A DNA stretch of 64,000 nucleotides from Hellea balneolensis DSM 19091. Its GTDB lineage: Bacteria; Pseudomonadota; Alphaproteobacteria; Caulobacterales; Maricaulaceae. Every line of letters begins with the position of its first letter. The stretch's first letter is position 1. Positions 26,739 through 54,409 of the stretch are shown here, in pieces. The notes beneath the pieces were generated by a model that worked only from the letters and a program-made list of their open reading frames with translations, did not search any database and was not told the origin of the DNA. Made by a program: the position numbers and the translations under genes. Location of the stretch: positions 1,054,001-1,118,000 of the forward strand of contig NZ_AUAC01000002.1 of assembly GCF_000428525.1 (NCBI RefSeq), read 5' to 3'.

Positions 26739-26749
26739 GCCTATGTAGG

Positions 26750-32635: not shown

Positions 32636-32642
32636 ATTAAAG

Positions 32643-32658: not shown

Positions 32659-32721
32659 TAAAAGCTCATTACATCTTTGCGTTCTCTTGTCCCTCAATAT
32701 GTATTAATCATACATGCTAGT

Positions 32722-35700
32722 TCAATAACGGGTTTCCCCAATGGTCACTTTCAAGAGCCTTGTAGCGGTGCCCGAGAGTTCAGCACTTAGCTCTTTTCCC
32801 GTGCCATCAATTTTTTTGATCTCAGCCAATCTAACATTACCAATTTGAACATTCTTCTGCCCCCCCAAACCAATTAGATATATCTTCGCCAAGCTATAAC
32901 GAGCTATATTATCTAAAATATCGACGTTTGAATTATCATATTCCACGTCACGGATAAGTAATGCTTCTTCAAGCCAGTTTGCTGCTTGATCATAATCACC
33001 ATTCCTATACATGTTATTGAGTATCAGTTGGGATAAAATAACCCTTGCCGTTTTGCCTCTATTATCATTCAATAAAGCAATTTTATCCAATATCGCAGTT
33101 CCCTTAGAAATTGTTGAAGAGTCCTTTATATATATTTTTGCAGCACGAAGTCCTGCGTAATAGTTAGCGCTGCTCCTTCTAGAATCCATCACAATTGACT
33201 GATATGCTTTTACATACCACTCAGCAGCTATTAGCTCATCGTTCCGATTTTTAGCATTTCCTAGCAGATAGTTTCCAATATTCACTTGAGCATCGGAGTC
33301 ATTTTGGTTTGCAGCTTTAATCCACCAATCATACGCAGAACCTTCAACATTCAAACTTGCTGGAACTCTGTTGGAGTTAACGGAAGTTCCTAACTTATTT
33401 TGAGCTTTTGGGTCACCATTTCTTGCCGCTAATACTATCGACTCTATCTTTTGCTCACCGAAACTATTCCAGAAATTGTCTATGCCATAGAGAGAAACGT
33501 ATTTTAAATTAATTTCATCAATATATTCAAAATCATAAAACCAGTTAGCATATTCAAATGCCGCTGCTACATTTTGTTCATACCCTTTTTCAAGTCCGAC
33601 CTGAACAGCATCGTGTGTCTTGCTTTCCAATTCACCTCGATATTTTCCATTTCTATATTCTTTGATGTAAGATTTTACTACGGTTAGATCGACCTTACTG
33701 GTTTTTCGCTCCAAGCTACGAACAGCACTTTCGAAAAGTTCGCGCTCTAATGCCATGGAACTTGCTAATTTGGATTTACCCAAATATCTGCCCGACTTGA
33801 AATATCTCTCATATTCTTTGTAAGAAAAACTTGTATCCCGTTGCACCGCTAAAGCAAATGCTCGATCATCCAGAGACCCGAAATGAGTGCAATACGAAAA
33901 TCTATCGACATGTGCAGACAGCGACGCCATATTTTCAATATTTTTTATCCGATCAAAATCTTCATCATCTAACAATATGACGCGTTTTGCTTTTGCTTCG
34001 CTGACAAATTGGCCACTTGGATGATTAGCCAAATACTTATCCATACTTCTTACTGTGTTCGCGTTTTGAGCTTTAAGCCAATCAGCATTATCCTTCTCAA
34101 TTTGAGCTTGAGCTTTTGCTCTATTTGCAGTTTCGGTAAGTTCAAGAATTTTTACTTCAACTTCGGAACGAAAACTTCCGTCAGGATTATTACCTAGGTA
34201 GTGTTTGTATGAAGCCAAAGTATTCTCTGATGCAGCACTCTCGTAAGCCTCCTTATCTTTACGGTCAGTCTCTTCCGAATTTAGCCTCAAAATTTCAGTT
34301 TTCACATATTCAGCATGTTCGGGGAAAAACTCTTCTAAGCTTTCAAACCCTGCGATGGTGTTCAGTGAAATAGCTTGCTGTTTAGCCGTCTGAAATTCAC
34401 GTTTTTGAATGTTATCTCGAACTAATGGAGTCGTTAAAATACCTGTTAAAACTATTGCACTAAAAATGTATGCAAGGTTCTTTTTAGATCGCTTACTAAC
34501 TTTTGCTACCTGTTTATCATTAGTGAATTCTGCCGCCTCAGTTTCATCCGAGACTTTCTTATCATTACCTTCAAGAAGATGGTTTTCAGAAGAATGTTCG
34601 TTTGTTTCTTGAGCCTTCGTGATTGGGGTTTCCTCAAACTCAGATTTGAGCTGATCCTTGGCCTCCTCAGACCTTTTCTTCTCTGCAAGCTCTAACAGAT
34701 GCTTTGCATCTAAATCTCCGTGCTCAGCGGCCTTAGAATACCACTCCCACGCCGCTTCGGGATTCTCAATAACGCCATGCCCATCCTTGTATTGATGTCC
34801 AATTGCCATCATCGCACGGGAATGGCTTCTTGTCGCGGCCTTAAGAAAAGCATTATGCCCTTCGACAAATTTCTTATTCGCACATGATAAAAGGCCTATT
34901 TGATAGTAAGCTTCTGGAGAGTTTTCGTTAGTTGGAAATTCGAAAATAAACTCTTGAAGCAGATCAACTGAAGGACTCCGAAGAATTTTCTTAAATTCAG
35001 CGTTAGCGTCTTTCTTAGGTTTTTTGTTCAAAGCCACTTTTGGCTTTTCAGTCTCTTTTATTTGCCTCTCGACAACTGGAGTGGCTACAATGTTCAGATA
35101 GTGACTCTTTCGTTCCTTAAACTCACTTTCAGAAAACTCATAAATCGAAGATTCCAGAATAAAAGCAAATTGCCCACCCTTATTGCCATCAATATCTAGT
35201 TTTCCTTCACGTGGTCGCTGAAAACTCTGGTGTTTCGACGACATATCTTTCTTAATATTCCAAGCAAAACCGCTTGAAGATAAATGTGATTGTCGATTTC
35301 GTGTCAAGAAATTAAGTGCGGGGTATGCAAAGACAGAATGATTTTGGTATGCGCCCCAATCAATAACTGTTCTCATGTCAGCGTCGCTGGTGAGCGCTCG
35401 GCGGCTTGCAAAACGCATTTCTCCTTTAGCCGCCTCTACAGTTGAGTCGTCAGCCCCTAAATTATTTTTATTTCGTTCAAAAATGCCCGCAGAAAAACAA
35501 CTATCTGAAACAACCAAGATATGACGCGCACGTATTGGTTCAAGGTGCGAAACAAAGTCTGTGTAATTAATCCATGTTTCTCCACAATACTCAGGAGGAG
35601 CATTTTTTGGAATGAAGTAGCTTAACCTTTTCAAATTTCCATTTATATCATTTTCTTCCTCTTCGGGCTCATAGACATCTTTCTCTCCATGCCCTGCCAA

Positions 35701-36027
35701 CCATATCAGCAATGAGTCATTTGGCCCAAGCTTCCTAGTTGATTTTCTTAATGGAGAGAAATTTCGCAAAGCCGAAAAAATAGCGCCTTTAGTTGCTTCA
35801 GCCTCTGGAATTAAAACTATGTTTTCTTCTTTAAAACCATAGCGTAACTCCATGAGGGCGCACAGTGCCGCCACGTCATTATTGGCAGATTTTAGATCAT
35901 TCCATCCGACATGGTCGTATAGATTTATGCCTACCGCCAATAAATGAAAATCACCGACTTCCACTTCATTTTGCCTTATATCACCTGAGTCAGTAGCGGC
36001 ACGAGGATTAAGGTTATCTTTTTTCAC
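32722..36027 (-). CDS. Caspase-like (peptidase C14) protein with Sel1 repeats and a membrane helix
   Basis: 1101 residues, GTG start at 36027 with GGGGAGGA upstream. The N-terminal caspase domain (~25-280) has the His of LIWLAGHGEKD and the Cys of LVVSDSCFSAG. Sel1/TPR-like repeats follow at ~370-460 (NPEAAWEWYSKAAEHGDLDAK), then one membrane helix (LAYIFSAIVLTGILTTPLV, ~525). Next come two copies of a Y/D-K-x-YL-x-N-xP-x-G-x-F-xSE motif (SYKHYLGNNPDGSFRSE, SMDKYLANHPSGQFVSE) and more Sel1-like repeats at the end. Bacterial caspases execute or trigger cell suicide in several defence systems. It stands next to the TIR cluster but beyond an attachment site. Confidence 0.85.
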   Translation of the reverse strand: MKKDNLNPRAATDSGDIRQNEVEVGDFHLLAVGINLYDHVGWNDLKSANNDVAALCALMELRYGFKEENIVLIPEAEATKGAIFSALRNFSPLRKSTRKLGPNDSLLIWLAGHGEKDVYEPEEEENDINGNLKRLSYFIPKNAPPEYCGETWINYTDFVSHLEPIRARHILVVSDSCFSAGIFERNKNNLGADDSTVEAAKGEMRFASRRALTSDADMRTVIDWGAYQNHSVFAYPALNFLTRNRQSHLSSSGFAWNIKKDMSSKHQSFQRPREGKLDIDGNKGGQFAFILESSIYEFSESEFKERKSHYLNIVATPVVERQIKETEKPKVALNKKPKKDANAEFKKILRSPSVDLLQEFIFEFPTNENSPEAYYQIGLLSCANKKFVEGHNAFLKAATRSHSRAMMAIGHQYKDGHGVIENPEAAWEWYSKAAEHGDLDAKHLLELAEKKRSEEAKDQLKSEFEETPITKAQETNEHSSENHLLEGNDKKVSDETEAAEFTNDKQVAKVSKRSKKNLAYIFSAIVLTGILTTPLVRDNIQKREFQTAKQQAISLNTIAGFESLEEFFPEHAEYVKTEILRLNSEETDRKDKEAYESAASENTLASYKHYLGNNPDGSFRSEVEVKILELTETANRAKAQAQIEKDNADWLKAQNANTVRSMDKYLANHPSGQFVSEAKAKRVILLDDEDFDRIKNIENMASLSAHVDRFSYCTHFGSLDDRAFALAVQRDTSFSYKEYERYFKSGRYLGKSKLASSMALERELFESAVRSLERKTSKVDLTVVKSYIKEYRNGKYRGELESKTHDAVQVGLEKGYEQNVAAAFEYANWFYDFEYIDEINLKYVSLYGIDNFWNSFGEQKIESIVLAARNGDPKAQNKLGTSVNSNRVPASLNVEGSAYDWWIKAANQNDSDAQVNIGNYLLGNAKNRNDELIAAEWYVKAYQSIVMDSRRSSANYYAGLRAAKIYIKDSSTISKGTAILDKIALLNDNRGKTARVILSQLILNNMYRNGDYDQAANWLEEALLIRDVEYDNSNVDILDNIARYSLAKIYLIGLGGQKNVQIGNVRLAEIKKIDGTGKELSAELSGTATRLLKVTIGETRY

Positions 36028-38769: not shown

Positions 38770-39360
38770 ATGGAAAAAACACCGCGCCCTCGCAAACCCT
38801 CTTCGCTCAAAGATGCCTCGCTCCCGAATGTCAGTGGGAGGCGTCTATTTGCTGCCAGTCCTGAACAGCAATCAGCAGAGCGTGAAGATGCCGTAAAGCT
38901 CACGCAATACCGCCGTGATTATTGGCAGAATTACAAGCGCCATATTAAGCGGGTGTTTGGAACGATTGATCCCCGAGACTATGCTCAGTGGGAGACATTG
39001 GCCGCAGAACAGGGCCGCACCGTATGGGGGCACATCTATGCTTGTGCGTGTGCCTATCTTTCAGGACGACAGCTAGCGTCCGCTGATGTCCTGACCGTAC
39101 AGACAGAGCTTGTGGCTGAGTTGCGGCGTATCGGCAATAACCTCAACCAAGCGGTACGCCTTGGTCACATCAAGGCCCATAGGGATGGGACGCTTTATGC
39201 CAACAGTGATGACGCGATTGGACAAAGCCTTTTGTCTACATTTGAGCGTTTAGAACATCGTCTCTGTCAGTTCGAGACCGACGTTAAAACGCTTACGCCT
39301 TCACATTCACCACATTCTTCGCGTCCAGAGTCCTTATCAAAGCCGTCCCATGATTGTTAA
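38770..39360 (+). CDS. mobC: MobC-like relaxosome accessory protein
   Basis: 196 residues with a central helix-rich region and the MobC signature ELRRIGNNLNQAVRLGHI. MobC proteins bind near oriT and help the relaxase open the strands. It overlaps the relaxase gene by 11 bp. Basic N-terminus and Ser/Pro-rich tail look unstructured. Confidence 0.8.
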   Translation: MEKTPRPRKPSSLKDASLPNVSGRRLFAASPEQQSAEREDAVKLTQYRRDYWQNYKRHIKRVFGTIDPRDYAQWETLAAEQGRTVWGHIYACACAYLSGRQLASADVLTVQTELVAELRRIGNNLNQAVRLGHIKAHRDGTLYANSDDAIGQSLLSTFERLEHRLCQFETDVKTLTPSHSPHSSRPESLSKPSHDC

Positions 39361-40348
39361 ATCCATGTCGCGCAAAGCCCCAACCTTTTCCCAATTAGCA
39401 GGGTATATTGGGCAAGACGGGTCTGGCGGGAGTCAGCGCTGTTTTGCGCGTAATCTTTATTACACTGGTGATAACCAGAAGGTCGTCTCAGGTCTGTTTT
39501 TAGATAATTATAGACATCTTCCGCCACGTAAAAACGGGAATGCGCTGTATCACGAAATCATCGTCCTAGAACCGCAACCGCATTTGCCGAAGGACAGACA
39601 AATGCAAATCTTGCAGGCGCTCGCGCATGAGTATTGCGAAAAGCGTGCGCCCCATCAACTCACATGGGGACGTGTCCATTTTGACACGACAAACCCGCAT
39701 ATTCATTTAATGATCTCAGCAAATGAGTTTGGATCACAAACACGCAAACGTCTGGATCGTAAGAGCTATGCTCGCATCCAAAGAGAGTTAGAGTCTTACA
39801 AGGAAGTTCATTTTCCAGAATTGGTTGAACACCGCGTCTACAACAAACCTTCGTCAAACCATGTTAAAACTAAAGCCAGCGAAGGAGAGATGGTTCGCCG
39901 CACAGGACAACTCTCTCAAAAACAATCCGTAGGGACTACGCTCAAAACTCTATTTAAGTACCGCGCGCATGTTGACGCGTTGAAAGCAGATTTAAACCGA
40001 GCAGGATTTCGTCTCTACCAACGCGGTAAGCAATGGGGCGTTGAGAACATCGAGACCCGCAAACGCTATCGTTTGAAAACATTGGGATTGGATCAGACCT
40101 TTGCTCACATCGTACAACGGTCACAGGCACAACAATCAGAACCGCTAGTGAGACCAAAAGAAAATCAAATCGCGTCTTCCAAATCTAGACCTAAGCCCGA
40201 CCTCACGCCCAAAGAAAAACCAGAAACACATACACCAGCCGATAGCCGTGCCCAAGCCTTGCTTAAAGCCAGAGAGCAATTGGAGCGCAGTGCGGCGCGA
40301 GAGTTGTCTGACTTTGATCGCGGCCTTGATGAGGGGCGTGATCGATGA
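39350..40348 (+). CDS. MOBP/VirD2-type relaxase
   Basis: 332 residues. The metal-binding triad is seen as His110 (GRVHFD), His117 and His119 (TNPHIHLMIS); a candidate catalytic Tyr lies at LAGYI (Tyr19). The C-terminal third is basic and low-complexity. Relaxases nick oriT and carry the strand to the recipient. This gene, mobC and the coupling protein form one operon; no type IV channel is present, so transfer would need a helper. Confidence 0.87.
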   Translation: MIVKSMSRKAPTFSQLAGYIGQDGSGGSQRCFARNLYYTGDNQKVVSGLFLDNYRHLPPRKNGNALYHEIIVLEPQPHLPKDRQMQILQALAHEYCEKRAPHQLTWGRVHFDTTNPHIHLMISANEFGSQTRKRLDRKSYARIQRELESYKEVHFPELVEHRVYNKPSSNHVKTKASEGEMVRRTGQLSQKQSVGTTLKTLFKYRAHVDALKADLNRAGFRLYQRGKQWGVENIETRKRYRLKTLGLDQTFAHIVQRSQAQQSEPLVRPKENQIASSKSRPKPDLTPKEKPETHTPADSRAQALLKAREQLERSAARELSDFDRGLDEGRDR

Positions 40349-41943
40349 AACCTCTCAAAACAATTTTTATAGGCGGACTGGCGCTTTTAGTTCTCGTGCC
40401 GCTTTTGCCTGCCCTCATGGCAGGATCGCCGCTTTTGGTTTTAATGATTTTCCTGTTTGGAGTGGGCTCTTTGAAATCCTTGAAGCAAGGCAGTTGCAAA
40501 CTCGCCACGAGTTTTGCGGGTGTTGTTCTCACGGGGCTCATGAACCTTGTCTCTGGGCTTTGTAAAAGTCTGTTTGGGTTAGTCACATGGCTGACAGGCC
40601 AAGGCGCGCAAGTTAGCGGCTTTATGAGCGGCTGGAAACAATGGCGTTTACTCGGCGGCCATCAAGACGGCTTTCTCGTCGATGGTCACACGCAACGTCT
40701 CTCAGAAAAAGCCACCTATGAGAGTCTTTTGATCCAAGGTGGAATGGGGCGCGGCAAGACCTCGACCTTCATGATTCCAAACCTCTTGAATCTCCCAAAG
40801 CATAAACCCAGCTTTGTCATTACCGACACATCAGGTGAAGTTTATCAAAACACGGCAGGCTATTTGAAAAGCCAAGGCTACCAAATAAAATGCCTCAATC
40901 TCATCAATCTTACGCAGTCTGAAACCTATAACCCTCTAGCGAATTGCCAGTCTCCCAAAGATATTGCCGAACTTGCTAAGATACTCGTCTCAACCGCCAA
41001 TACAAAACAAGGCGGCGGATCGGGCGACCCTTTTTGGGAACAATCGGCAGAGAAGCTTATTCGTATTTTAGCGCAGTGCTTACATAATCAACCTGACCCG
41101 CAATATCGCAACCTTGCTAATCTACGCCATCTCATCACGAGCTTTGACGCGCATACCGCGCCAAAAGGGCAGCTCGGTAAGATTGATAATTTTGTGTTGG
41201 GAGCCACCCAATCTGATCCAGCAACTTTTTCCAGTTACCAAGCTTTTGTTCAGGGAAATCTCAAAACCATACAATCGGTTTTGATGAGTGCCGATGTGGC
41301 GCTTGATCCACTAGGCATTCCAGAAATCGCGGCGGTCACAGCGACGAATACCATTCAGTTCTCTGATTTACGAAATAGGCCCACCGCCCTTTTCATCTTG
41401 GTCAATCAGACACAAATGCCGTTCTATTCTTTTATATTAAACCTGTTCTTTACTGACCTGTTCAGAGCCTTGCTGACCAATCATAGCAACACTGGAAGGC
41501 CTGTCTGGCTGTTCTTAGAAGAGTTTGGCCATCTACGCGTCAATCACTTTGAAACCTATGCTGCGACAGCGCGCAAATACAAAGTCAGTTTTGCGATGTT
41601 CCTGCAATCACTGGCACAGATTGAAGCGCGGTATGGCGCGATCAATGCCAAGACCATTCTGGAGTCTATCGGTACAGAAATTTACCTACCTGGCATGGCG
41701 CTCGACACCGCCCGAAATCTAGAGGCACGTTTAGGGCGCAATAAAAAAGCGCCGCTTATGCCTGCTAATGAGATTATCCGCATGAAGCAAAAGCAAGCCT
41801 TAATGCTGCAATCCAATCATCTGCCCATCAAGCTGAAAACCAAACGGTTTTATGAACAAAGCACGATGAAGCGACGGAGATCCGTCCCTATTCAAATGCC
41901 CGCCTCTGCGGCCAAAGTCCCTCCGGTGCTTATTCAATTATAA
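40345..41943 (+). CDS. Type IV coupling protein (TraG/VirD4-like)
   Basis: 532 residues with two N-terminal membrane segments (about 8-40 and 50-85), Walker A in LIQGGMGRGKTSTF, the family's FVITDTSGEVYQNTAGYL and Walker B in VWLFLEEFGHLR. It overlaps the relaxase gene by 4 bp (ATGA). It links the relaxase-DNA complex to a type IV channel; an IME that keeps its own coupling protein usually needs only a mating-pair channel from a helper. Confidence 0.88.
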   Translation: MKPLKTIFIGGLALLVLVPLLPALMAGSPLLVLMIFLFGVGSLKSLKQGSCKLATSFAGVVLTGLMNLVSGLCKSLFGLVTWLTGQGAQVSGFMSGWKQWRLLGGHQDGFLVDGHTQRLSEKATYESLLIQGGMGRGKTSTFMIPNLLNLPKHKPSFVITDTSGEVYQNTAGYLKSQGYQIKCLNLINLTQSETYNPLANCQSPKDIAELAKILVSTANTKQGGGSGDPFWEQSAEKLIRILAQCLHNQPDPQYRNLANLRHLITSFDAHTAPKGQLGKIDNFVLGATQSDPATFSSYQAFVQGNLKTIQSVLMSADVALDPLGIPEIAAVTATNTIQFSDLRNRPTALFILVNQTQMPFYSFILNLFFTDLFRALLTNHSNTGRPVWLFLEEFGHLRVNHFETYAATARKYKVSFAMFLQSLAQIEARYGAINAKTILESIGTEIYLPGMALDTARNLEARLGRNKKAPLMPANEIIRMKQKQALMLQSNHLPIKLKTKRFYEQSTMKRRRSVPIQMPASAAKVPPVLIQL

Positions 41944-41957
41944 GGAAGAGATGCAAG

Positions 41958-42200
41958 ATGACACATATCGTAGCGAAACGAGAAGGATATTATGAAGGTT
42001 ATAAACACGGTTTAAAAGGGACAGCCTTCGACCCAAATCCGAAGCGCGCAGCTTCAATTTCAGATCAAACATGCCTGCATATTTATTTGGTCGCTTATGA
42101 AGAGGGATATGATCGAGCAAAGTCAGATCGATTGCTCTTATTGAGCGGACGAGAGGAGCGCCGTGACATGGAAAACAATGCCCCAGAACGGCTTGTATAA
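41958..42200 (+). CDS. Small protein, paralogue of the next gene
   Basis: 80 residues. It shares with the following protein the pattern GYxxGYxxxLxGxxxxPxPK...YLxxYxxGYxRxK (here GYYEGYKHGLKGTAFDPNPK and YLVAYEEGYDRAK). It starts 14 bp after the coupling protein with AAGGAAG upstream. No known family; co-located with mob genes. Confidence 0.6.
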   Translation: MTHIVAKREGYYEGYKHGLKGTAFDPNPKRAASISDQTCLHIYLVAYEEGYDRAKSDRLLLLSGREERRDMENNAPERLV

Positions 42201-42520
42201 TGTTTGAGCAAGTGGGATTTAAAGTGGGCGTTCAAGATGGTTATCAAGACGCGCTTGAAGGTAAGCGTTCACGACCACATCCCAAATTAGCCTTATGCCT
42301 GATAGCTCAAGGCTATCAGGAAAATTACTTAACAGGTTATCATTTGAGTTATAACCGAACGAAACACACCCTTTTGAAGAAGCAGGTGAATAAAGATCAA
42401 AACATAAGACAAGAAGCGGGCCGTACTGAAACGCTTTTATTTGAAAGGGCGCAATTACAAAAAAAGACTCTCGAACAGAAAAACCAAACCAGACAAGGCG
42501 GTTTTGACCGCGAAGTTTGA
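42200..42520 (+). CDS. Small protein, paralogue of the previous gene
   Basis: 106 residues, start overlapping the previous stop (TAATG). The first 60 residues match the previous protein's pattern (GYQDALEGKRSRPHPK, YLTGYHLSYNRTK); the rest is a charged helix (LLFERAQLQKKTLEQKNQ). Its role is unknown. Confidence 0.6.
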   Translation: MFEQVGFKVGVQDGYQDALEGKRSRPHPKLALCLIAQGYQENYLTGYHLSYNRTKHTLLKKQVNKDQNIRQEAGRTETLLFERAQLQKKTLEQKNQTRQGGFDREV

Positions 42521-42746: not shown

Positions 42747-44471
42747 ATGAAACTTGCTATCAGTTTATTACGCGTGTCATCAGATAGGCAATATCAAGAA
42801 GGACAAGGAATCAATGTCCAAAAACGGACAATTGACTATTTTGCTGAGCGCAATGAGTACGCCATCGTCCGTTATTTTGTAGAGCACTATAGCGGTCGGA
42901 AAGCTGACCGAGAAGTGCTGGAAGAGATCATAGAGTACCTCGCTAAAAATGAGGGTGAAATTTCTGCTCTCATTGTTAGCCAGATTGACCGCTTTACACG
43001 AGCAGGCGCAGAGGTTTACCTCTATCTGCAAAAGCAACTCCGGTCTCTTGGCGTTGAACTTGTTGATGCATCCGGTATCATTCAACAGCCAGTAAACACG
43101 CTGGCTCATACGGGGTTTTCATATGAGTGGTCTACCCGCTCCCCAAGCCGTCTCACTGAAACCATTATGGCAGAACAGGCTAATGCAGAAGCCACTCAAA
43201 TTCTGACACGCTGTATTGGCGGGCAAATCGAAAGCGCGCAAAAGGGTTTTCAATACAAATCCGCTGACTACGGCTTTCAAAATGAAAAGACTGTCACATC
43301 TGATGGGCGCAAACGTACCATCATGGTCAAAGATGAAACCGAAGCTGTTCACATCGAGATGATGTATACCCTTCGGGCTGAAGGGCATCTCTCAGATACA
43401 ACAATTTGTGAAAGACTTAATAATGCGGGGTATGAGAGCCGTCCGTTTAGGCGGTATGATAAGGTCACGAGGGAAGTCGTTGGAGAAGGCGGGCGTGTTA
43501 AACTCACACCTAAGCAACTTCAGAAATATATCAGACGCCCCGTCTATTGCGGCATTCGTATTGGAAAGTGGACAAAGCGAAAAGCCATCTGGTTGCCACG
43601 AGAATGTCCGCGTCTGGTATCCATTGATGTTTTCAATCGAGCCAATCGTGGGCGCATAAAAATCACTGAGGTCGATAATGATCTCGTGATTGAAGAGAAT
43701 GTTGGAAAACAAATCAGCACAGCCGAGACAGGTGATTTTCTATTGAGACATGTAATCTGCTGCCCTGAATGCAATAAACCTTTTAAAGCTTCAAAAAGCC
43801 GTGGAAAATCTGGGGGGCTATTTGGGTATTACCATTGCAGCCGCGATCATAAATACTTCGGGGTCAACGCCAAGGTGTTCGAAGATACGGTTGCTAAGAC
43901 TGTTCGAAACATAAGGTTCAAGAAGAAATTATTGGGCGTATTGAAAGAAGTTGTTCGTGATGTTTGGATCAAACATCACAAGGCTGATGAAATCGTCAAA
44001 CAGCAAACAAAAGCGCATATTGAAGCCCTTCGAAAACGTCAAACTCAACTGGTAGGGAAAATATCACGCTGTGCATCTGATATTGTCCAAACAGCCCTTG
44101 AGCAAGAGTACGAAGAGCTGGAAGACAATATAAATTCAGCCGTTAAACAGCTCTCTGAATTTGTGAATAATGATGTGCAAATTGAGACCTATTTTCAGAA
44201 GATCAAAGAGGCGGTGGAACACCCTGAAAAATGGCTAATGAACCCCCAGTCAAAGGCGTCTACGGTCAAAGCATGGGGCTTTCTTTTCGAAAAACCTCCC
44301 ACTTGGTCAGAAATGGAAAGTCGAACACCCCGATTAGCGCTCCCCTTCCGGTTTTTAACCGGATCGGAGACTAAGAAAGGACGGTTGGTGGAGGTGGCGT
44401 CCCTAGAGTCGAACACCCTAATTCGGCACGTTAAGGCCTTTAGTAAGTTTAATCAGACTGAATTTCAGTAA
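42747..44471 (+). CDS. Large serine recombinase
   Basis: 574 residues. The catalytic domain has the nucleophile Ser11 in LLRVSSDRQ and SQIDRFTRAGAEVY; the recombinase domain runs through ~170-320 (LNNAGYESRPFRRYD...RRPVYCGIRIG). A zinc ribbon follows with CCPECNKPF and a later YHCSRDHKYF, then a coiled coil at ~410-480. Such proteins integrate or excise DNA at short core sites. The last ~30 codons lie inside a 44-bp sequence that recurs after the next cargo gene, so cargo has been added at its 3' end. Confidence 0.88.
   Translation: MKLAISLLRVSSDRQYQEGQGINVQKRTIDYFAERNEYAIVRYFVEHYSGRKADREVLEEIIEYLAKNEGEISALIVSQIDRFTRAGAEVYLYLQKQLRSLGVELVDASGIIQQPVNTLAHTGFSYEWSTRSPSRLTETIMAEQANAEATQILTRCIGGQIESAQKGFQYKSADYGFQNEKTVTSDGRKRTIMVKDETEAVHIEMMYTLRAEGHLSDTTICERLNNAGYESRPFRRYDKVTREVVGEGGRVKLTPKQLQKYIRRPVYCGIRIGKWTKRKAIWLPRECPRLVSIDVFNRANRGRIKITEVDNDLVIEENVGKQISTAETGDFLLRHVICCPECNKPFKASKSRGKSGGLFGYYHCSRDHKYFGVNAKVFEDTVAKTVRNIRFKKKLLGVLKEVVRDVWIKHHKADEIVKQQTKAHIEALRKRQTQLVGKISRCASDIVQTALEQEYEELEDNINSAVKQLSEFVNNDVQIETYFQKIKEAVEHPEKWLMNPQSKASTVKAWGFLFEKPPTWSEMESRTPRLALPFRFLTGSETKKGRLVEVASLESNTLIRHVKAFSKFNQTEFQ
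44386..44429. repeat. Cargo-boundary direct repeat, copy 1 (inside the recombinase gene 3' end)
   Basis: A 44-bp sequence, starting TGGTGGAGGTGGCGTCCCTA, is found again at 46307-46350 with one mismatch. Twelve bases of it (AGTCGAACACCC) also occur at 44319-44330. The reverse strand ends in CGCCACCTCCACCA, which resembles the 3' end of a tmRNA or tRNA. Confidence 0.75.
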
Positions 44472-46230
44472 TAATTTCAATTAGCCCTGCAAAAGAAGAA
44501 AAATTACTTATGTCAGTATTTGACGCCATAGCCTGTGCAAATTCTCCCTTTTTATTTTTATTAAACTCCTCAAAGTGAGTCTCCGTTCCATCAACATTTT
44601 TGGTTATTTTAACGGTGAAGCCTTCAAAAACACTTTCGGGAAACGCATTTTCAATACCTCGAGTGACAATTTTATTTGATTTATTGTCTGGAATTCTGAA
44701 TCCAAAAGTTGTGTCAGTATTAACAAATGACTTTTTGTAATCACAGTCCCAGACAAAAATAACTTTCTGTTCGTGAGGTAACTCTGAAAGAAAATCAAAC
44801 AAGGCACGCATTTTATTACAACATGTGATGGATTCTAAGCCATCAAGCACTTGAACGTTAGAAATGCCACTTAAGTTTAGCACTTGCTGAATTATGTTTG
44901 TATTATGCCCTTCAGTAATAATGCATGTGTCATGACCTGACATCTCCTTAAATAATGAGATACCTTGGTCTAAAGTAATGTAGCCTTCTGAAATTAAACT
45001 CATCGCTTGAGCCCGGCTGTGTTTGCTAATCTTAGTAGCCACATTTCCTTTATTGACGACGTAAATGGTTTCTTCAGAAGCTAAGGCTATTGTAGAAGGA
45101 GAATGGGTGGCGAGAATTACCTCGATTCCACGTGCAACAAAAACAGACTCTAAAGTACCCAGTAGTGCTTTCGTCATTGATGGGTGAAGCGAAGCGTCAA
45201 TCTCATCAAGTAGCAATACTTTTGGTAATTCAAAGTTATCCGCAGATTGATAGATCGAGAGTGCTAAAGCTAATAATGTCTGCTCTCCAGAAGAAAGCGC
45301 CTCAAACGCTCGCGCTTGACCATGAACTTTGTCTAAAAGCTGCGGTTGAAAGATATAACCTTGGTAGCTTTCCAAAGTTAAAACATCAGTTTGAGGGTTC
45401 GTGATTTCAAAGTTGAAAACATCCTGTCCTCCACCTTGTTGATGAATTCCTTCCATTATTTCATTTATAACGACCCATGGTTGGAGGTTTTCTTCCTCAA
45501 ATTTTTGATAAAAACTTTCAATTGGCAAACTGACACCGCCTGCACCCCATTGCCTATGAGCCCATAAAAATTGTTTCACTTTGTATTTTGTAAAAACAAC
45601 GCTAAGAGACGCTGATAGGTAATCATTACCGGATGAGTGCGGAGAGAAGTGTTCTCTAAATTCACTTTCAACAATTAAGTGAATTGGTTTCTGACACTTC
45701 TTGAGGGCCCTAGAGATTGACTGATGATAGCCATTTTTCTTGAAATTTAGATTCTCAAATAAATGATGACGTACTAAAGATTCATATTGCTTCTTTCTCG
45801 AAAGAAACTCTTCATCCTCACCTTCATATTTATGCCAAAAGCTATGCTCTAGAAATCCATCATCGTCAGGGTAAGCTGTCTTAATATCTGTAGCTCCAAA
45901 AACTTTGGAGAAATATTGATGCATCGTCCTCAACCAATTCACTTTTGGATTTCCACTAACACCAGTTAAAATTTGCCAACCAGCAAGGGTTTGAGCGGCT
46001 AACTGTTGCGCATTTAACGCCTTTGGCGACTTCATACGGAAGTTTAGCAAATTGTAGTACTTTACTTGTGCAGGGGTTGAACCCTGAACGGTGATAGAGC
46101 CATTATCTATCGCTTGAAGTAAATGTGTTTTCCCAGCACCGTTCAGCCCGGTCATAACTGTTAACGTCGGTAATTCAGTATCAGCAAGTTGCTTGATTGA
46201 AATATGTTCAGTTTGAAAAGTAAGCTTCAT
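44449..46230 (-). CDS. OLD-like AAA ATPase with C-terminal TOPRIM-type region
   Basis: 593 residues. ABC-type ATPase: Walker A GLNGAGKTHLL (~30), signature LSSGEQTLLAL, Walker B VLLLDEIDASLH and the His switch ATHSPSTIAL. After ~430 the sequence has IITEGHNTNIIQQVL and FVWDCDYKKS, which look like the Glu and D-x-D of a TOPRIM nuclease fold. This domain order is that of OLD-family nucleases and some single-gene defence proteins. The gene stands alone between two copies of the 44-bp repeat, opposite in direction to the recombinase, and its 3' end overlaps the recombinase stop by 23 bp. Confidence 0.8.
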   Translation of the reverse strand: MKLTFQTEHISIKQLADTELPTLTVMTGLNGAGKTHLLQAIDNGSITVQGSTPAQVKYYNLLNFRMKSPKALNAQQLAAQTLAGWQILTGVSGNPKVNWLRTMHQYFSKVFGATDIKTAYPDDDGFLEHSFWHKYEGEDEEFLSRKKQYESLVRHHLFENLNFKKNGYHQSISRALKKCQKPIHLIVESEFREHFSPHSSGNDYLSASLSVVFTKYKVKQFLWAHRQWGAGGVSLPIESFYQKFEEENLQPWVVINEIMEGIHQQGGGQDVFNFEITNPQTDVLTLESYQGYIFQPQLLDKVHGQARAFEALSSGEQTLLALALSIYQSADNFELPKVLLLDEIDASLHPSMTKALLGTLESVFVARGIEVILATHSPSTIALASEETIYVVNKGNVATKISKHSRAQAMSLISEGYITLDQGISLFKEMSGHDTCIITEGHNTNIIQQVLNLSGISNVQVLDGLESITCCNKMRALFDFLSELPHEQKVIFVWDCDYKKSFVNTDTTFGFRIPDNKSNKIVTRGIENAFPESVFEGFTVKITKNVDGTETHFEEFNKNKKGEFAQAMASNTDISNFSSFAGLIEIITEIQSD

Positions 46231-46306
46231 TTTAATCGATACTTGTAGTCTTAGAAAACGCTACTCATTGCGCCTTTTATAGCAAGACGCAAGGGTTCTA
46301 CGAAAA

Positions 46307-46350
46307 TGGTGGAGGTGGCGTCCCTAGAGTCGAAAACCCTAATTCGGCAC
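46307..46350. repeat. Cargo-boundary direct repeat, copy 2
   Basis: This copy differs by one base from the 44-bp copy at 44386-44429. It is preceded by GTTCTACGAAAATGG (46295-46309), which is also found ahead of copy 3. It separates the OLD-like ATPase gene from the Gabija-like pair. Confidence 0.75.
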
Positions 46351-46463
46351 ATTAGGTCTTTGGTAGACTGAGGTTTGGCCTACCTGTAATACACTTATGG
46401 ATTGATTGGCTACGCAGGAAGATTGCTTGAAGCACTTTTCTTCCTAAAATGGGATAAAATCGA

Positions 46464-48170
46464 ATGAAATTACGAAATCTCAAAATAGCAAACTACCGAG
46501 GTGTAAAATCTCTAAATTGGTCCATCCCGGATATTCCTCAGATATGTTTGATCGGTTCAGGAGATTCGAACAAATCAACAATACTAGAAGCAATTAGTTT
46601 AGTTTTTTCGCCATATTGGAATCCTAAAATAACTGACAACGATTTTCACAATTGTGATCCTTCTCAACCAATTCAGATTTTCGCTACCATAGGAAATTTA
46701 CCCGAAGAGTTTATCAGTAGGTTTGATTTTGGTGATAACCTTAGTGGATGGAACATCGCCACTAATGAATACTCTACTGAACCTAAAGATGATGAAGGTT
46801 GGGAACTGGCACTTAAGGTGAGGTTCTCTGTAGGCGCGGACTTAGAGCCTAAATGGAGTGTTGTACGAGAAGATCATGATGAAGGACGTGATTTCAAAAC
46901 TGCTGACAGAACAAAAGCTAATGTAAGTCTAGTCGGACATGATAGAGATATCCATCTTACATGGAGCCGTTATTCAGTTTTAGACCGAATTACTGAGAAG
47001 CAGGTTGTTACATCGCCTTTAGCAATAGCAGGACGAGCAGCAAAGGAAGCACTGTGTGGACAGCGAGACCAAATTGCTAACCTAGACGAAGCTGCAGGTG
47101 TTGCAGAAGCTGCAGCACGCGAACTGGGCATACAAGTAAATACTGGCTACCAAGCTCATTTAGATCTCGCAGCAATTCAGCTTCGACAGGGAGGACTCGG
47201 CCTCCATGATGGCAATGTCCCTATTCATCAACTCGGACTAGGTTCTAAAAGAATGTTGATCGGAAGCTTGCAAGGAAAAGTTAAAGAGGGGCATCATATA
47301 ACTCTGTTTGATGAGATTGAAGTTGGACTGGAGCCAAATAGAATTGCGAGACTTTTAAAAACACTGGCGGATGACGCTGTGGGTCAATTTATAATGACAA
47401 CCCATTCTCCCGTTGTCTTGCGCGAGCTCGGAGTCGAAAACTTATTTGTAGTTCACGCGAGCACTGCAGAGACTAAAATAATTCCTGCAGCTCAAGAGCA
47501 TATTAAAAATAACCTGCAGGGAAATATTAGGCTTGCTGCTGAAGCGTTCTTGGCTTCAAAAGTAATAGTTTGTGAAGGTGCCACAGAGGTTGGCTTCTTA
47601 AGAGGGTTGGATCAATCTTGGGTCAAAGAAAAAGAGTTAAGTTGCTCCTATCATGGTGTAACATTTTTAGACGCTAGAGGGGCATCTAAAATCGAAGGAA
47701 TCGTCAAAGATTTAAATCTGATGCAATACAATTCTTGTGTTTTTGCTGATGCAGATGATGAGAGTAATTTTTCAAAAGCAACTAGAAACACCTTATCTAC
47801 TAGCGGAACAAAAGTCATAGTTTGGGCGGATTCGTTCTGTCTTGAACAACGTGTCTTTAACGACCTTCCTTGGGAGGGAGTGGTGGAATCTCTACGGCTT
47901 GCACAGACCTTGGGTAATAATGCAATTGTTGCCAATGTTGGATCTGCAATTGGTAGGGTAATTGATACAAATATCGAAAGTTGGGAAGATGCTCAAGACT
48001 TAAGAAATGCTATCGGAAAGGCTGCGAAATTATCAGAATGGTTTAAACGTACAGATAGAGGAGAAGCTTGGGCAATATTGATTTTTCCATATGTAAAGTC
48101 AGAGGAAATGGTCAATAGTGATTTAAGTGTTAAAGTCAGTCAATTACGTCACTGGATATCAGATGAATGA
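46464..48170 (+). CDS. gajA: GajA-like OLD-family nuclease/ATPase (Gabija)
   Basis: 568 residues. N-terminal ATPase: the Walker A position reads IGSGDSNKSTILEAI, the signature region GLGSKRMLIGSL, Walker B ITLFDEIEVGLEPN and MTTHSPVVL. The C-terminal TOPRIM half has VIVCEGATEVGFLRGL (Glu) and CVFADADDESN (D-x-D). The Walker A carries a Ser-Asp-Asn in place of the usual G-x-G. It is translationally coupled (8-bp overlap) to a UvrD-like helicase gene, the pairing that defines Gabija, an anti-phage system in which GajA cuts DNA when nucleotides run low. Confidence 0.78.
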   Translation: MKLRNLKIANYRGVKSLNWSIPDIPQICLIGSGDSNKSTILEAISLVFSPYWNPKITDNDFHNCDPSQPIQIFATIGNLPEEFISRFDFGDNLSGWNIATNEYSTEPKDDEGWELALKVRFSVGADLEPKWSVVREDHDEGRDFKTADRTKANVSLVGHDRDIHLTWSRYSVLDRITEKQVVTSPLAIAGRAAKEALCGQRDQIANLDEAAGVAEAAARELGIQVNTGYQAHLDLAAIQLRQGGLGLHDGNVPIHQLGLGSKRMLIGSLQGKVKEGHHITLFDEIEVGLEPNRIARLLKTLADDAVGQFIMTTHSPVVLRELGVENLFVVHASTAETKIIPAAQEHIKNNLQGNIRLAAEAFLASKVIVCEGATEVGFLRGLDQSWVKEKELSCSYHGVTFLDARGASKIEGIVKDLNLMQYNSCVFADADDESNFSKATRNTLSTSGTKVIVWADSFCLEQRVFNDLPWEGVVESLRLAQTLGNNAIVANVGSAIGRVIDTNIESWEDAQDLRNAIGKAAKLSEWFKRTDRGEAWAILIFPYVKSEEMVNSDLSVKVSQLRHWISDE

Positions 48171-49590
48171 TGTTGCTAGCCGCATAGCAAATTTTGAAGG
48201 CTGTGGATACGTTACTGCTCCAGCAGGTTACGGGAAAACCCATGCTATATGTGAAGCGGTTCTTCATTCTGAGGGACGACAACTAATTTTAACCCACACT
48301 TATGCGGGCGTAAATGCAATAACAACCAGTCTTAAAAAACTCAAAGTTCCAAGTAAGAACTATTATGTAAACACGCTTGCAGGCTGGGCTTTAAAACTTT
48401 GTTTATCGTACCCAAACACATCCGGGTTTACAAATCCCCAACCTCAGACAAACGCTGAGTGGTTAGAGTTATACAATTCGACTAGGTTACTTTTAAATAA
48501 GACATTTATTCGTAAAATTTTATCAGCCTCATACGCTGGTTTACTAGTCGATGAGTATCAAGACTGCCAAACCCTTCAACATTCGATAGTCCTAGACTTA
48601 TCCGAATACCTCCCCACACGGGTTTTAGGTGATCCATTACAAGGAATTTTTGAGTTTCAAGGCCAGCAGATCGTTGATTGGCAAAATGATGTGGAAAATA
48701 ATTTAGAGGCAATTGGCGTGCTCAATACTCCACACAGGTGGCTTAAAGATGACAACCCTGCGTTAGCAACTTGGCTTCAGTCTGTTAGAGAGAATATATT
48801 ACAAAACACCCCGATACCTCTGAATAACGCACCTGAATGCGTTGACGTAATTGCTACTACACCTGATCAATTGGGCCGAATACAGCAAAACACTTGTCGA
48901 TATTTTGCATTACCACGAGGTGATACAGCTGTAGCAATACATGCTGGTCATTTCATAAATGGTTGCCATTCTTTGGCTAAAAACGTGAGTGGAAAATTTC
49001 ACTCAATTGAACAGGTGGAAGGGAAAGCAATATTTGAATTTATATCTGAATTAGAATCAAAAGAGTCGTCATCAGAAAAATTACTAAGCACTATAGTTTT
49101 GTTAAAAAAGGTAATGACTGCAGTGAACGGTAACCTTCCAGCAGGAGCAAAACGAGGAGAGCACAGTACCATAAGAGCTAATACTCCGAATGTTCAACTG
49201 GTTTCATCGTTAAACAATTTTATTGAAACTCCAACGAGCGCTAATCTAGATGATATTTTTACAGAAATAAGATCTCTTGATGAGCCAAAGGTCTACCGCC
49301 GAGACCTTCTTAACCGCCTTCAGGCAATTTTGAAAAAGCATAAAGTTAGCGAGTTAAGTTTGATTGATTGTGCTCATGAGTTTCATAGAGAGTTTAGGCA
49401 TTATGGTCGCCCAACTAGACATCCAAAATGCGTTAGCACCACTTTACTAGTGAAAGGGCAGCAATTTGATCATGCAATTGTATTGGATGCCGCAGCTCTC
49501 TCTAAAAAAGAGCTTTATGTAGCACTTACAAGGGGATCAAAAACTCTAAAGATCATAACAACAGAAAACTCATTAAACCCGCAAGATTAA
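48163..49590 (+). CDS. gajB: GajB-like UvrD/Rep-family helicase (Gabija)
   Basis: 475 residues from the ATG at 48163, which overlaps the gajA stop; an upstream in-frame start at 48127 would overlap gajA by 44 bp. Walker A is APAGYGKTHAI, helicase motif II VDEYQDCQTLQ, and motif III-like TRVLGDPLQGIFEFQG. The last motif LYVALTRGSKTLKII matches helicase motif VI. These are superfamily 1A DNA helicase features; in Gabija, GajB senses DNA ends from GajA and uses up NTPs. Confidence 0.8.
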   Translation: MNDVASRIANFEGCGYVTAPAGYGKTHAICEAVLHSEGRQLILTHTYAGVNAITTSLKKLKVPSKNYYVNTLAGWALKLCLSYPNTSGFTNPQPQTNAEWLELYNSTRLLLNKTFIRKILSASYAGLLVDEYQDCQTLQHSIVLDLSEYLPTRVLGDPLQGIFEFQGQQIVDWQNDVENNLEAIGVLNTPHRWLKDDNPALATWLQSVRENILQNTPIPLNNAPECVDVIATTPDQLGRIQQNTCRYFALPRGDTAVAIHAGHFINGCHSLAKNVSGKFHSIEQVEGKAIFEFISELESKESSSEKLLSTIVLLKKVMTAVNGNLPAGAKRGEHSTIRANTPNVQLVSSLNNFIETPTSANLDDIFTEIRSLDEPKVYRRDLLNRLQAILKKHKVSELSLIDCAHEFHREFRHYGRPTRHPKCVSTTLLVKGQQFDHAIVLDAAALSKKELYVALTRGSKTLKIITTENSLNPQD

Positions 49591-49593
49591 TGA

Positions 49594-49647
49594 GTTCTAC
49601 GAAATTGGCTAGGCAGAGTTGAATACCCCGATTCAGCATGTTAAAAG
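49594..49647. repeat. Cargo-boundary repeat, copy 3 (diverged)
   Basis: GTTCTACGAAATTGG matches the sequence ahead of copy 2, and the following GAGTTGAATACCCCGATTCAG resembles the repeat core in diverged form. It lies 4 bp after the gajB stop and marks the right end of the Gabija cargo. Confidence 0.55.
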
Positions 49648-50047: not shown

Positions 50048-52165
50048 ATGGAATACCGGATAATAGCTAGTCCGCCGGATGAAATAGAAGCTTACACTCC
50101 ATCTGGCTTATTTAGCTACATGCGAAAGGTCGCTGGCTGGACTTATCAAAATATTGTTGAGTTGATTGATGTATACGAGGAATACGGCCTCATAGATATC
50201 AATACTGTAAAGGCTTGGGGAAACAAAAACTCTATTCCTTCCGGTGAATACCGAGATGCTTTTTTACGCGTAATCCATGACAATGCAGTTCCGAAATATA
50301 AAGATGATTGGATAGAATCATTTGTCACATGTTGGGCCAGGTTTGCGTCTGGCTTGACCTCGGAAAAAATAGATTCAGCGGAAGAGGCATTAGAGACTTC
50401 GAACGAAGTTGCGATTTCTCTGATGACCAACTGGTTTCACTCCAACTTTCAAGACCCAGTAAATCGGCTCACTTATAATACCCGAGAAGGAGGTTACTTA
50501 TATACCTTCGGTGGTCCATATGATGCCAGTGAACAAATCTGGGATGAATTTGGTGATCTCTATTCTGCAGAACTTATTGAACGTGCTGTTGATCGTGTCC
50601 AAGAAGACGGCATTTATGAATGGGATTCGGTTGAGCGCCCCGGCGACTATGGCGAGGAGGAGCCGCCTGATGATTTTTTAGACCTGAGTCCCAGCAAAAC
50701 GACATTAAGCCCTCCGGATCAAGACCTCGGCCCACGTTGGCGTTATGATGAGGGGCGTGTTGTACCAGACGTAGCTCATGTTACCTTCTCGCAGCTCACA
50801 CATGATCTTCATGCGGTTCTCCGCCAATCTGTTCGCAATGCTCAGCAATCTTGCGCGACATTACGCAATAAATTCCCGGATTTATGGGCGTCATTGTCGA
50901 CCTACTCTGAGCTTGTTGACGTTGATACAACAGATCTGTCTGAACTCCCAACTTATGTAGCTGGACTGGATCTAGAGACACGTTTTCGATTGTCTCGCGA
51001 TATGGGCGAAAACCCTACGAATGAGTATCCAGAGCTGAGCCTTTCAGAAGCCTCAACTCTTGAACAGGTTATACGTCTTCACGCGCCTTTTATCCAAAGT
51101 ACGCCCTTGGGAAGCCGCATTTCATCGCTCGCCGATCAAGAAAATCGAACGCCCGGTCAGACCCGTCAGCTAGCAGCCGATATTGTCACTGCATCTAACG
51201 CTCTTCTAAAGCATCCCAATCTTATTGACGCGTCTGCGGTTCAGCTCTTGCGAGACAACGTTACGCTTAATTCAGAAGATCCTAAATTCTATCGTCGGGT
51301 TACGCTTTCTCAAGTCGGTATAAAAAACCTCTCCATTGTCATGGGAACGATTGCTATCATCTCGGTCGCACCTGTAGCCGCCGGAGCCCTTGTGGGTGGT
51401 ATCATTGGGGGTGCATCCGGACTTGTCGGCGCTCCGCTCCTTGGGGCCGCTGCTGCTGGATCTGTCACAGGCGGCACTATTGGCAAAGCCCTCATGCCTT
51501 GGTTTCGTTCACCGATAAGTGATTCAAAGCCATTTCAAGAGGTCAAAGAGGGTTTAACCAATTCTCTAAACAATCGCTTTTCACTCGATACTTCGCGAGG
51601 GTTTAGATCCATTCGTGATTTGTACATCGGCGTTCGTGATTTACTCATGCCAGTTGCAGGATCTCCGGGCATTGATGAGTGGTTTGACGCGCTTCACAGT
51701 GATCTCGACGAGTATGGGGATGTTCTTCTAGATCCACTTGATCCGAGTTCTTATGCTGTGAATAATTATCAATCAGGCCCTCAATATCCCCTTGGTGTTT
51801 TATACGAAAACTCAGCTTGGCGTGTCGATATTGAAGGCATGTCAGCATTGGACGGCAGTCGAGAATTTAGCATCGGCAACATATTTGCTGTTTCAGAATG
51901 GTCAATGTCCAGTTCGGAAAAAATAGATCTCTATCACGCGCCTATGCATATGAGCCTCAAAAGCCGAACTAATCTTGACGAATTTGTGAATGCATGGCTG
52001 ATCGCACTTGATGCTCATTCCTCTTCTTCTGGGTCACATAAGTTACGTCCTGAAGTTTTAGAGGCCACTTTGGATGATCTCTCGAAAAACAAGCATTTGA
52101 ACCAGGCATCAATCAACCAATTTCAGCAGTTTATAGTTAACCTTGCCGACAATCCCTTCGTTTGA
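50048..52165 (+). CDS. Unrecognised 705-residue protein with a glycine-zipper membrane segment
   Basis: Start ATG at 50048 with AGGAAA upstream. Residues ~157-200 contain YTFGGPYDASEQIWDEFGDLYS, a pattern I have seen in uncharacterised bacterial proteins. A long Gly/Ala-rich hydrophobic stretch lies at ~427-485 (APVAAGALVGGIIGGASGLV, LGAAAAGSVTGGTIGKAL), with the G-x-x-x-G spacing of membrane-inserting helices. There is no signal peptide. It is isolated (IS66 scar before it, 348 bp of non-coding after). A membrane-acting effector is a reasonable guess but unproven. Confidence 0.65.
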   Translation: MEYRIIASPPDEIEAYTPSGLFSYMRKVAGWTYQNIVELIDVYEEYGLIDINTVKAWGNKNSIPSGEYRDAFLRVIHDNAVPKYKDDWIESFVTCWARFASGLTSEKIDSAEEALETSNEVAISLMTNWFHSNFQDPVNRLTYNTREGGYLYTFGGPYDASEQIWDEFGDLYSAELIERAVDRVQEDGIYEWDSVERPGDYGEEEPPDDFLDLSPSKTTLSPPDQDLGPRWRYDEGRVVPDVAHVTFSQLTHDLHAVLRQSVRNAQQSCATLRNKFPDLWASLSTYSELVDVDTTDLSELPTYVAGLDLETRFRLSRDMGENPTNEYPELSLSEASTLEQVIRLHAPFIQSTPLGSRISSLADQENRTPGQTRQLAADIVTASNALLKHPNLIDASAVQLLRDNVTLNSEDPKFYRRVTLSQVGIKNLSIVMGTIAIISVAPVAAGALVGGIIGGASGLVGAPLLGAAAAGSVTGGTIGKALMPWFRSPISDSKPFQEVKEGLTNSLNNRFSLDTSRGFRSIRDLYIGVRDLLMPVAGSPGIDEWFDALHSDLDEYGDVLLDPLDPSSYAVNNYQSGPQYPLGVLYENSAWRVDIEGMSALDGSREFSIGNIFAVSEWSMSSSEKIDLYHAPMHMSLKSRTNLDEFVNAWLIALDAHSSSSGSHKLRPEVLEATLDDLSKNKHLNQASINQFQQFIVNLADNPFV

Positions 52166-53343: not shown

Positions 53344-53734
53344 GTTCAAGTGTTTTCAATTTTCTTCAATCAGCTGCGAATGAAAAATTCAGCCATTTGA
53401 TATAAGCTATGAATAATCTTTTTTAGCTGTTTGTCAGAATATGGCTTCCCTGAAATTCCTAAAATTTGACGGGCTACTTTTACTGTTACTTTTCGATCCC
53501 GCCAATCATCAGACATGCGGGGTTAAAGTCTATAACAAAGCGGTTACTGTTCATATCTCTGCTAGCGCTTTACAGCAAAGTGATAGTATTGCTTTTAACA
53601 AAAACCGAAGTAGACTCCGTTGTGTCAATGCAATCTAGCGACACTAATTTCTCCCTAACATCACAGCCATAAACACCGAAAAGCCGTATTCTAAGGGCCT
53701 TATAGCTTCTGCTTCTGTTAAAAGTGACAGTGAG
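53344..53734. other. Intergenic stretch without a supported gene
   Basis: About 390 bp. Two short plus-strand frames (53441-53638 and 53466-53672) overlap each other and lack ribosome-binding sites. No repeat or palindrome stands out. Confidence 0.5.
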
Positions 53735-54409
53735 TTGTCTCTGAAATCCGAGCATCCGGTTAATGCTGGAAAAAAACTTGCGCTGTCCAAAGATGAAACC
53801 GTAGAAATTCAAAAAATGCTGATGCGGCAAAGCCGTTGGCGCGATCTCGCGCTTTTCATGCTTGGTATAGACAGCCTATTACGAGTGAGCGACTTGCTCA
53901 AACTCCGGGTGCGCGACGTTGCTGACCCCAATGGTCGCGTCCAAGCTCAATTCCATCTTACGCAAACTAAAACAAAGCGATCAGTAGAAATCTATCTGAC
54001 GCGCCCAACGCAACAAGCCGTACAGCACTGGATCGATACTTCAGAAAAATTGGAATCTGATTATCTATTCACTAGGTTGCGCCGCCGAGGAAGTCACAAT
54101 GCTCCTATCAGTGATATAATGCTTAGGCTATTGATCAAAGGCTGGGTCGAAGCGATTGGATTAGACCCCAAGCGTTATTCAAGCAAAACACTCCGCAAGA
54201 CGCGGGTAAGAGCCATTTTGGAAATGGCAAATTACGACTACGCCGTTGTTCAGAAGCTTCTTGGACACTCCAATCTACAGAGCACCATTCACTATGTGGA
54301 CTTAGCTCAAGATACGGCGAGAGACTGTGCGGAACGGGTTCAATACTTTGAGCCACTTAATCTCAAATTTGACAGAAACTCCAAAATAGGTAGCGTCAAT
54401 GGTACTTAA
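53735..54409 (+). CDS. Small tyrosine recombinase (catalytic domain only)
   Basis: 224 residues, TTG start likely. Only the catalytic domain is present: Arg in SLLRVSDLLKL, TLRKTRVRAILEM (where the usual His-x-x-Arg reads Lys-Thr-Arg), LLGHSNLQSTIHYVDL with the nucleophile Tyr. Small phage/plasmid recombinases of this kind act on element-internal sites such as dimer resolution or inversion. It lacks an arm-binding domain, so it is not the integrase of the element. Confidence 0.78.
   Translation: MSLKSEHPVNAGKKLALSKDETVEIQKMLMRQSRWRDLALFMLGIDSLLRVSDLLKLRVRDVADPNGRVQAQFHLTQTKTKRSVEIYLTRPTQQAVQHWIDTSEKLESDYLFTRLRRRGSHNAPISDIMLRLLIKGWVEAIGLDPKRYSSKTLRKTRVRAILEMANYDYAVVQKLLGHSNLQSTIHYVDLAQDTARDCAERVQYFEPLNLKFDRNSKIGSVNGT

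Follow-up and report, generated by a model that had tools for sequence, protein, structure and literature searches.

A large serine recombinase gene with a putative slot for defence cassettes in its 3′ end

The gathering and turnover of defence genes in mobile elements have mostly been treated in terms of hotspots, with no known mechanism of insertion. In a 64,000-nucleotide (nt) stretch of the Hellea balneolensis DSM 19091 genome (contig NZ_AUAC01000002.1, positions 1,054,001 to 1,118,000; hereafter referred to as the window), a large serine recombinase gene is followed by an OLD-like ATPase gene and a Gabija gene pair, which lie between copies of a short repeat. How did these defence genes come to stand there? 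Here we report that the repeat contains a 33-nt core that is conserved as DNA, occurs in both empty and filled versions in related elements, bounds different defence cargo and continues into in-frame protein tails. Comparative sequence analysis makes a strong case for a slot with varying defence cargo, and we consider it likely that defence cassettes enter at this site in the recombinase gene by site-specific recombination, probably catalysed by the adjacent large serine recombinase.

Repeat copies at the end of the recombinase gene

The recombinase gene, the repeat copies and the cargo between them are arranged as follows.

42747 to 44471, plus strand: large serine recombinase of 574 residues with Resolvase, Recombinase and weak Zn-ribbon domains; the site is in its 3′ end
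44319 to 44330, plus strand: upstream motif AGTCGAACACCC in the recombinase gene, which exactly matches the 3′ part of the core; Rhodobacterales relatives have GGAACACC both here and in the core
44385 to 44417, plus strand: core of site copy 1, 33 nt, encoding LVEVASLESNT; the 44-bp repeat is at 44386 to 44429
44418 to 44471, plus strand: recombinase tail after the core, LIRHVKAFSKFNQTEFQ, and stop
44449 to 46230, minus strand: cargo 1, OLD-like/AAA_21 ATPase, a type known from defence systems and assigned to no particular one, between copies 1 and 2
46295 to 46305, plus strand: left arm GTTCTACGAAA of cassette-end copy 2 (compare GTTCTATAGAA in the DC_out69 relative)
46306 to 46350, plus strand: site copy 2, the core and the beginning of a tail, SLESKTLIRHIRSLVD, and stop
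46464 to 48170, plus strand: cargo 2, GajA of Gabija (PDLC04168, E = 2.2e-177)
48127 to 49590, plus strand: cargo 2, GajB of Gabija (PDLC04173, E = 1.1e-144), the true start probably being an ATG near 48166
49594 to 49604, plus strand: left arm GTTCTACGAAA of copy 3
49605 to 49647, plus strand: site copy 3, decayed, out of frame after a deletion of about 10 nt

A previous reading of the window from its letters and open reading frames (ORFs), the sequence-only reading, had pointed to a 44-bp repeat at 44386–44429 and 46307–46350 and to a diverged third copy at 49594–49647. Alignment confirmed one mismatch in 44 positions between copies 1 and 2; their match reaches 55 nt at 91% identity (94% over the core), with a local alignment score of 96 against a shuffle maximum of 32. 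The core of copy 3 is weak by itself, its score of 30 equalling the shuffle maximum. Together with the left arm GTTCTACGAAA, which precedes copies 2 and 3 as that reading had noticed, it reaches 42.5, whereas 200 shuffles reach at most 40, and copy 3 is therefore probably real, albeit decayed. The placement of copy 1 inside the 574-residue ORF and the identities of the ATPase, GajA and GajB between the copies were borne out as well. A 21-nt part of the repeat had no other occurrence within the window with up to three mismatches allowed, and a whole-genome search with 181 bases around copy 1 recovered copies 1 and 2 alone.

The protein belongs to the large serine recombinases, with an N-terminal resolvase domain that contains the catalytic serine (1e-17), a Recombinase domain (2e-5) and a zinc ribbon (2e-4, below its cut-off). 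Its PDB matches are the TP901-1 integrase and TnpX N-domains, and the catalytic-region residues R9, S11, D81, R82 and R85 are invariant across six relatives. CcrA and CcrB are the closest curated NCBIfam families, at 40 and 35 bits against cut-offs of 700 and 900. An AlphaFold model (mean predicted local distance difference test score of 57) was not used. The proteins of the relatives end in LAGxLSLxWNTFExE, which is homologous to LVEVASLESNTLIRHV of the window protein; by this homology, the repeat is the C-terminal coding region of the recombinase, and copy 1 is its last coding part.

A tRNA or transfer-messenger RNA (tmRNA) 3′ end had been suspected at first, because the recombinase gene of a distant homologue (27% identity; genome G433, loci L010 and L052) runs at its 3′ end into a tRNA-Arg gene; in the window, TGGTGGAGGTGGCG resembles such an end in reverse complement. 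This reading was ruled out, as neither RNA lies at the repeats, the genome's own tmRNA is mismatched and the stretch is the conserved recombinase C terminus. In the G433 homologue, the overlap is with a tRNA-Arg(CCG) gene on the opposite strand, with one in-frame TAG, and the gene end may also serve as an attachment site in the wider recombinase family.

The core is conserved as DNA

Synonymous conservation was measured as codon identity where codons encode the same residue, pairwise across the recombinase genes. At the 11 core codons, the same synonymous codon is used in 89% (six genes) or 95% (four genes) of the comparisons, and gene-wide in 42–43%. Among approximately 545 windows of 11 codons that lie off the core, none attains this identity. 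The excess starts at TTG and stops at ACC, and the core thus has sharp edges and is conserved as DNA. Since empty elements contribute to the signal, it reflects more than copying within filled elements.

Furthermore, the right end of the core has a motif twin (AGTCGAACACCC) in the same gene, about 88 nt farther upstream. Within each element, the core motif equals its upstream twin (TCGAACACC in the window and TGGAACACC in Rhodobacterales) despite the different reading frames, and TGGAACACC occupies both positions in four of the five Rhodobacterales genes. This agreement would be expected if a single DNA-binding protein recognised both motifs, and it suggests that the pair co-evolves with such a protein, in the simplest case the recombinase.

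Empty and filled slots in related elements

Relatives were sought in 398 sampled Pseudomonadota genomes and, in an alignment-guided scan, in 84,980 genomes. Recombinases with 42–51% identity were found in Rhodobacterales: Pseudorhodobacter E13 (L059), a metagenome-assembled genome (L060), NORP181 (L061), DC_out69 (L062) and Nioella (L063), together with Roseibaca (L064, gene incomplete) and Ruegeria (L065, at a contig end). Records G1500, G1397 and G958 are the same as L062, L059 and L063, respectively, and were counted once. One further gene serves as a landmark for the comparison.

53370 to 53516, minus strand: small convergent gene, homologous to the L060 gene (E = 4.8e-6)

In Pseudorhodobacter E13, the metagenome-assembled genome and Nioella, a single repeat copy at the recombinase gene is followed directly by the small convergent gene, with no cargo or second copy there, and the 53-kb Nioella contig contains no core copy besides that at the recombinase gene. 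In the window, the small gene lies about 9 kb downstream, beyond the cargo. DC_out69 carries 45-nt copies at 11630 and 14911 that flank a Sir2-HerA system (SIR2, 1e-126, adjoining HerA, 2.5e-244); the small gene comes after the second copy, and the two copies are 94% identical over the core. In NORP181, 73-nt copies flank a 0.5-kb unit next to the small gene. In a second Roseibaca locus (L086), a cargo gene without a name precedes the core, and the small gene and VWA/PP2C/kinase genes follow. A Pseudorhodobacter array reads core, 6.4 kb, core, GajA/GajB, core, across two contigs joined by an exact 107-nt overlap. GajA, an OLD-like ATPase with a TOPRIM domain, adjoins the UvrD-like helicase GajB both there and in the window; the two Gabija systems are only about 25–29% identical and thus do not stem from a single recent transfer. 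Genome-wide, the core pattern was found at 7 places in 7 genomes, and a reversed control pattern at none. Relatives without cargo thus keep one repeat copy, and the cargo between copies varies (Sir2-HerA, the 0.5-kb unit, Gabija and others), so that the comparison supports the defence-cargo slot at the recombinase 3′ end that the sequence-only reading had proposed.

Single-protein scans of genome and viral contigs, and tblastn searches of plasmids and phages, returned no close relatives; alignment-based scans of viral contigs likewise returned none, and scans of viral contigs for GajA and for the exact repeat found nothing. In the distant G1144 element, an apparent second copy of the tail was rejected as insignificant, with 15 of 300 shuffles equally good.

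Cassette ends carry a common left arm and an in-frame tail

At the copies closing a cassette, the left arm is foreign to the recombinase and common across genera. The arm GTTCTA(CG/TA)(A/G)AA occurs in the window (twice, as GTTCTACGAAA) and in DC_out69 (as GTTCTATAGAA), and CGCTCTRYGAGCGRCTTAAAAGG occurs in Pseudorhodobacter (twice) and Roseibaca. To the right, the frame continues past the core to a nearby stop in L062, L086, L083, L085 and copy 2 of the window. The tails vary among copies yet remain in frame, often keeping the NTFExE pattern, and the decayed copy 3 is the sole exception among the copies checked; the second NORP181 copy has a 1-nt deletion in the core and is in frame only beyond the deletion. 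In DC_out69, the tail of the second copy, beside the small gene (FEEEVRRASVGL), is nearer to the tails of empty elements than is the present tail of the recombinase (LENEISEFVRGL), the outcome expected if an older tail was displaced downstream.

A model for cassette entry

In the model that we favour, the 3′ end of the recombinase gene would double as the attachment site for cassettes. Each cassette would comprise a defence module of one or two genes and, at its end, a left arm followed by the 33-nt core and a C-terminal tail in frame with it. On entry, a cassette that is circular or has been transferred would recombine core-to-core with the site in the gene, leaving the recombinase frame intact and replacing its tail with that of the cassette, while the former tail would move behind the new cargo, beside the small convergent gene. 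Repeated insertion could build the array seen in the window, from recombinase to OLD-like ATPase to Gabija. The enzyme would most likely be the adjacent large serine recombinase, because no other gene always accompanies the site, and because SCC and ECC cassette chromosomes, which are driven by the large serine recombinases CcrAB, likewise rely on direct repeats of about 50 bp at the 3′ end of a gene (PMC6222049).

Several points weigh against this model. Between copy 3 and the small gene lie 3.7 kb, including a 705-residue ORF, with no fourth copy there. In Pseudorhodobacter, 34 kb separate the array from the recombinase, and the first copy of the array forms a fusion with an unrelated ORF. 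The dyad symmetry expected of a serine recombinase site is present in only 2 of 14 copies and was not relied on, and independent examples are few because the family is rare. Cassette movement, the exact crossover point, the role of the recombinase and stepwise insertion are what we infer from the arrangement of sequences.

The 705-residue ORF (50048–52165) has no Pfam, PADLOC or NCBIfam match and is possibly a third cargo whose closing copy was lost. In L083 (6904–7917), an unrelated 337-residue ORF has the same core and tail at its C terminus (VAGQLSREWNTFKA), without the cassette left arm, perhaps through insertion at a secondary target.

Among the alternatives, the one that survives best, although we regard it as improbable, is that whole related elements integrated in tandem at the site and then lost their mobility genes, leaving cargo and attachment-site remnants in the form of cis-mobilisable elements (CIMEs). 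Such accretion is well documented for integrative and conjugative elements and integrative mobilisable elements (IMEs) (PMC5704250); tRNA-Leu islands show that it occurs in this very window, and the G433 recombinase gene runs into a tRNA gene. However, no recombinase remnant precedes copies 2 and 3 or the second DC_out69 copy, where a short conserved left arm is found instead, and the single core copy in the Nioella contig also speaks against it. No mobility-gene remnants were seen between the copies in the window or in DC_out69, where small ones could be missed. Moreover, the small gene and the VWA triad beyond the site belong to the same element family, which makes the site internal rather than an element end.

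Homologous recombination, with the conserved 3′ end as a homology arm through which RecA would exchange cargo without the recombinase, seems unlikely. The copies do resemble the resident recombinase end, both in the window and in DC_out69, but the homology spans about 33–55 nt with abrupt edges, the synonymous over-conservation of the core extends to empty elements, where homology does not require it, and the common left arms would be left unexplained. We hold it equally unlikely that the core serves another enzyme as its resolution or recognition site and that the serine recombinase gene overlaps it by chance. A tyrosine recombinase gene (53735–54409) lies just past the small gene in the window, and another lies near the Pseudorhodobacter array; however, the serine recombinase gene is the only one that always carries the site, and the site motif varies between elements in step with its twin in that same gene. 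Chance duplication of gene fragments, with cargo arriving independently, is very improbable: every repeat does belong to a protein-coding gene end, but one and the same 33-nt unit, its left edge unchanged, surrounds different cargo in several genera, and the sharp-edged core, the synonymous excess and the common foreign left arm contradict plain duplication.

Comparison with known systems

The model of cassette entry through the recombinase gene invites comparison with integrons. In integrons, IntI is a tyrosine recombinase, and the attC sites are folded single strands. The present system resembles them in having a platform recombinase beside its site, recombinase-free cassettes, cassette-borne sites with their own left arm, and arrays both at and away from the enzyme gene. 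By sequence, its cassettes lack a recombinase, end in a common putative recombination site and form arrays. The system differs in that the site-carrying enzyme is a serine recombinase, not an IntI-type tyrosine recombinase with attI, and in that the site is part of a coding sequence and provides the C-terminal tail of the enzyme itself. We tentatively propose, as an idea somewhat less probable than its opposite, a serine-recombinase counterpart of integrons, in which a site in the enzyme's own gene captures and releases recombinase-free anti-phage cassettes and each insertion swaps the enzyme's C-terminal tail. If so, cassette and enzyme would stay matched, and the tail swap may tune the enzyme.

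The system shares with SCC elements and CcrAB a large serine recombinase, a site in a gene 3′ region, direct repeats of about 50 bp and variable cargo. SCC elements target the host gene rlmH and carry their recombinases inside the inserted unit; here, by contrast, the target is the platform's recombinase gene, and the inserted units have no recombinase. The site is thus not at the rlmH 3′ end, and the CcrA and CcrB scores fall far below their cut-offs. As in CIMEs and IMEs, cargo bounded by attachment sites and without its own integrase stands beside an element that has one (PMC5704250), and serine-recombinase IMEs have been described with very short direct repeats (PMC5704250). Here, however, no decayed element remnants were seen, the cassette ends are conserved and the site is internal to the element. 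In the integration-dependent immunity of phage BPs, the attachment site lies in the repressor coding sequence, and integration alters the C terminus (PMC4557955). In both cases a site within a coding sequence would let recombination alter the product; there, phage integration alters a repressor, whereas here cargo insertion would alter the recombinase. The P2/P4, Escherichia coli island and Tn7-like defence hotspots (PMC9122126, PMC10121019, PMC8649781) likewise combine a fixed place with varying defence cargo, whereas here a short conserved DNA site bounds every cargo unit.

The open-licence literature searched contained no description of a serine recombinase with a cassette slot in its own gene, and a recombinase that exchanges its own C terminus at each insertion is, as far as that literature shows, undescribed. 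A defined short site and a candidate enzyme that mark the ends of defence modules make cassette capture directly testable, and the site could be used as sequence bait for new defence modules.

The element and its surroundings

Two further parts of the element frame the slot.

38770 to 42520, plus strand: mobilisation backbone, with a MobC-like protein, relaxase (39350 to 40348), VirD4-like coupling protein (40345 to 41943) and two small ORFs
57540 to 60959: VWA/PP2C/kinase triad, which also occurs in related elements

The backbone common to the relatives comprises MobC, the relaxase, the VirD4-like protein, the recombinase and the VWA/PP2C/kinase genes. An IME has an integrase, a relaxase and a coupling protein and lacks a complete conjugation machinery. 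The element may be one: it encodes the relaxase, VirD4-like protein and recombinase, and no type IV secretion system was seen within the window, the only region examined for it. The G+C content of the cargo is 38–40%, below the 46% of the mobilisation module. The small gene (about 50–85 residues) is conserved beside the slot, with a palindrome (AATGAAGTCTTCATT) nearby in DC_out69 and Nioella, and is a candidate accessory or directionality factor.

Upstream of the relaxase in DC_out69 (L062, 196–6446), three repeats of the relaxase 5′ end surround other genes and an IS21-type insertion. In Nioella (L050, 5617–9794), MobC and the relaxase are separated by other genes, and in Ruegeria (L065, 620–7086) the MobC/VirD4 region has a helicase, a type III methyltransferase and a DUF262-like gene on its upstream side. 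These three arrangements point to a second place that may take cargo, ahead of the relaxase.

At a larger scale, the 14-nt 3′ end of a tRNA-Leu gene (TGGTGCGGCTGAGA) occurs four times in the window (176–189, 18012–18025, 24246–24259 and 62624–62637), accompanied by tyrosine recombinase genes at 16653–17375 and 61175–62482. Judged by these repeats, the window holds tandem islands at tRNA-Leu, and the element studied here is in the third. The same island encodes, at 24327–36027, several TIR/SEFIR-like proteins, a phospholipase-like protein and a caspase-like repeat protein, which are likely further defence genes.

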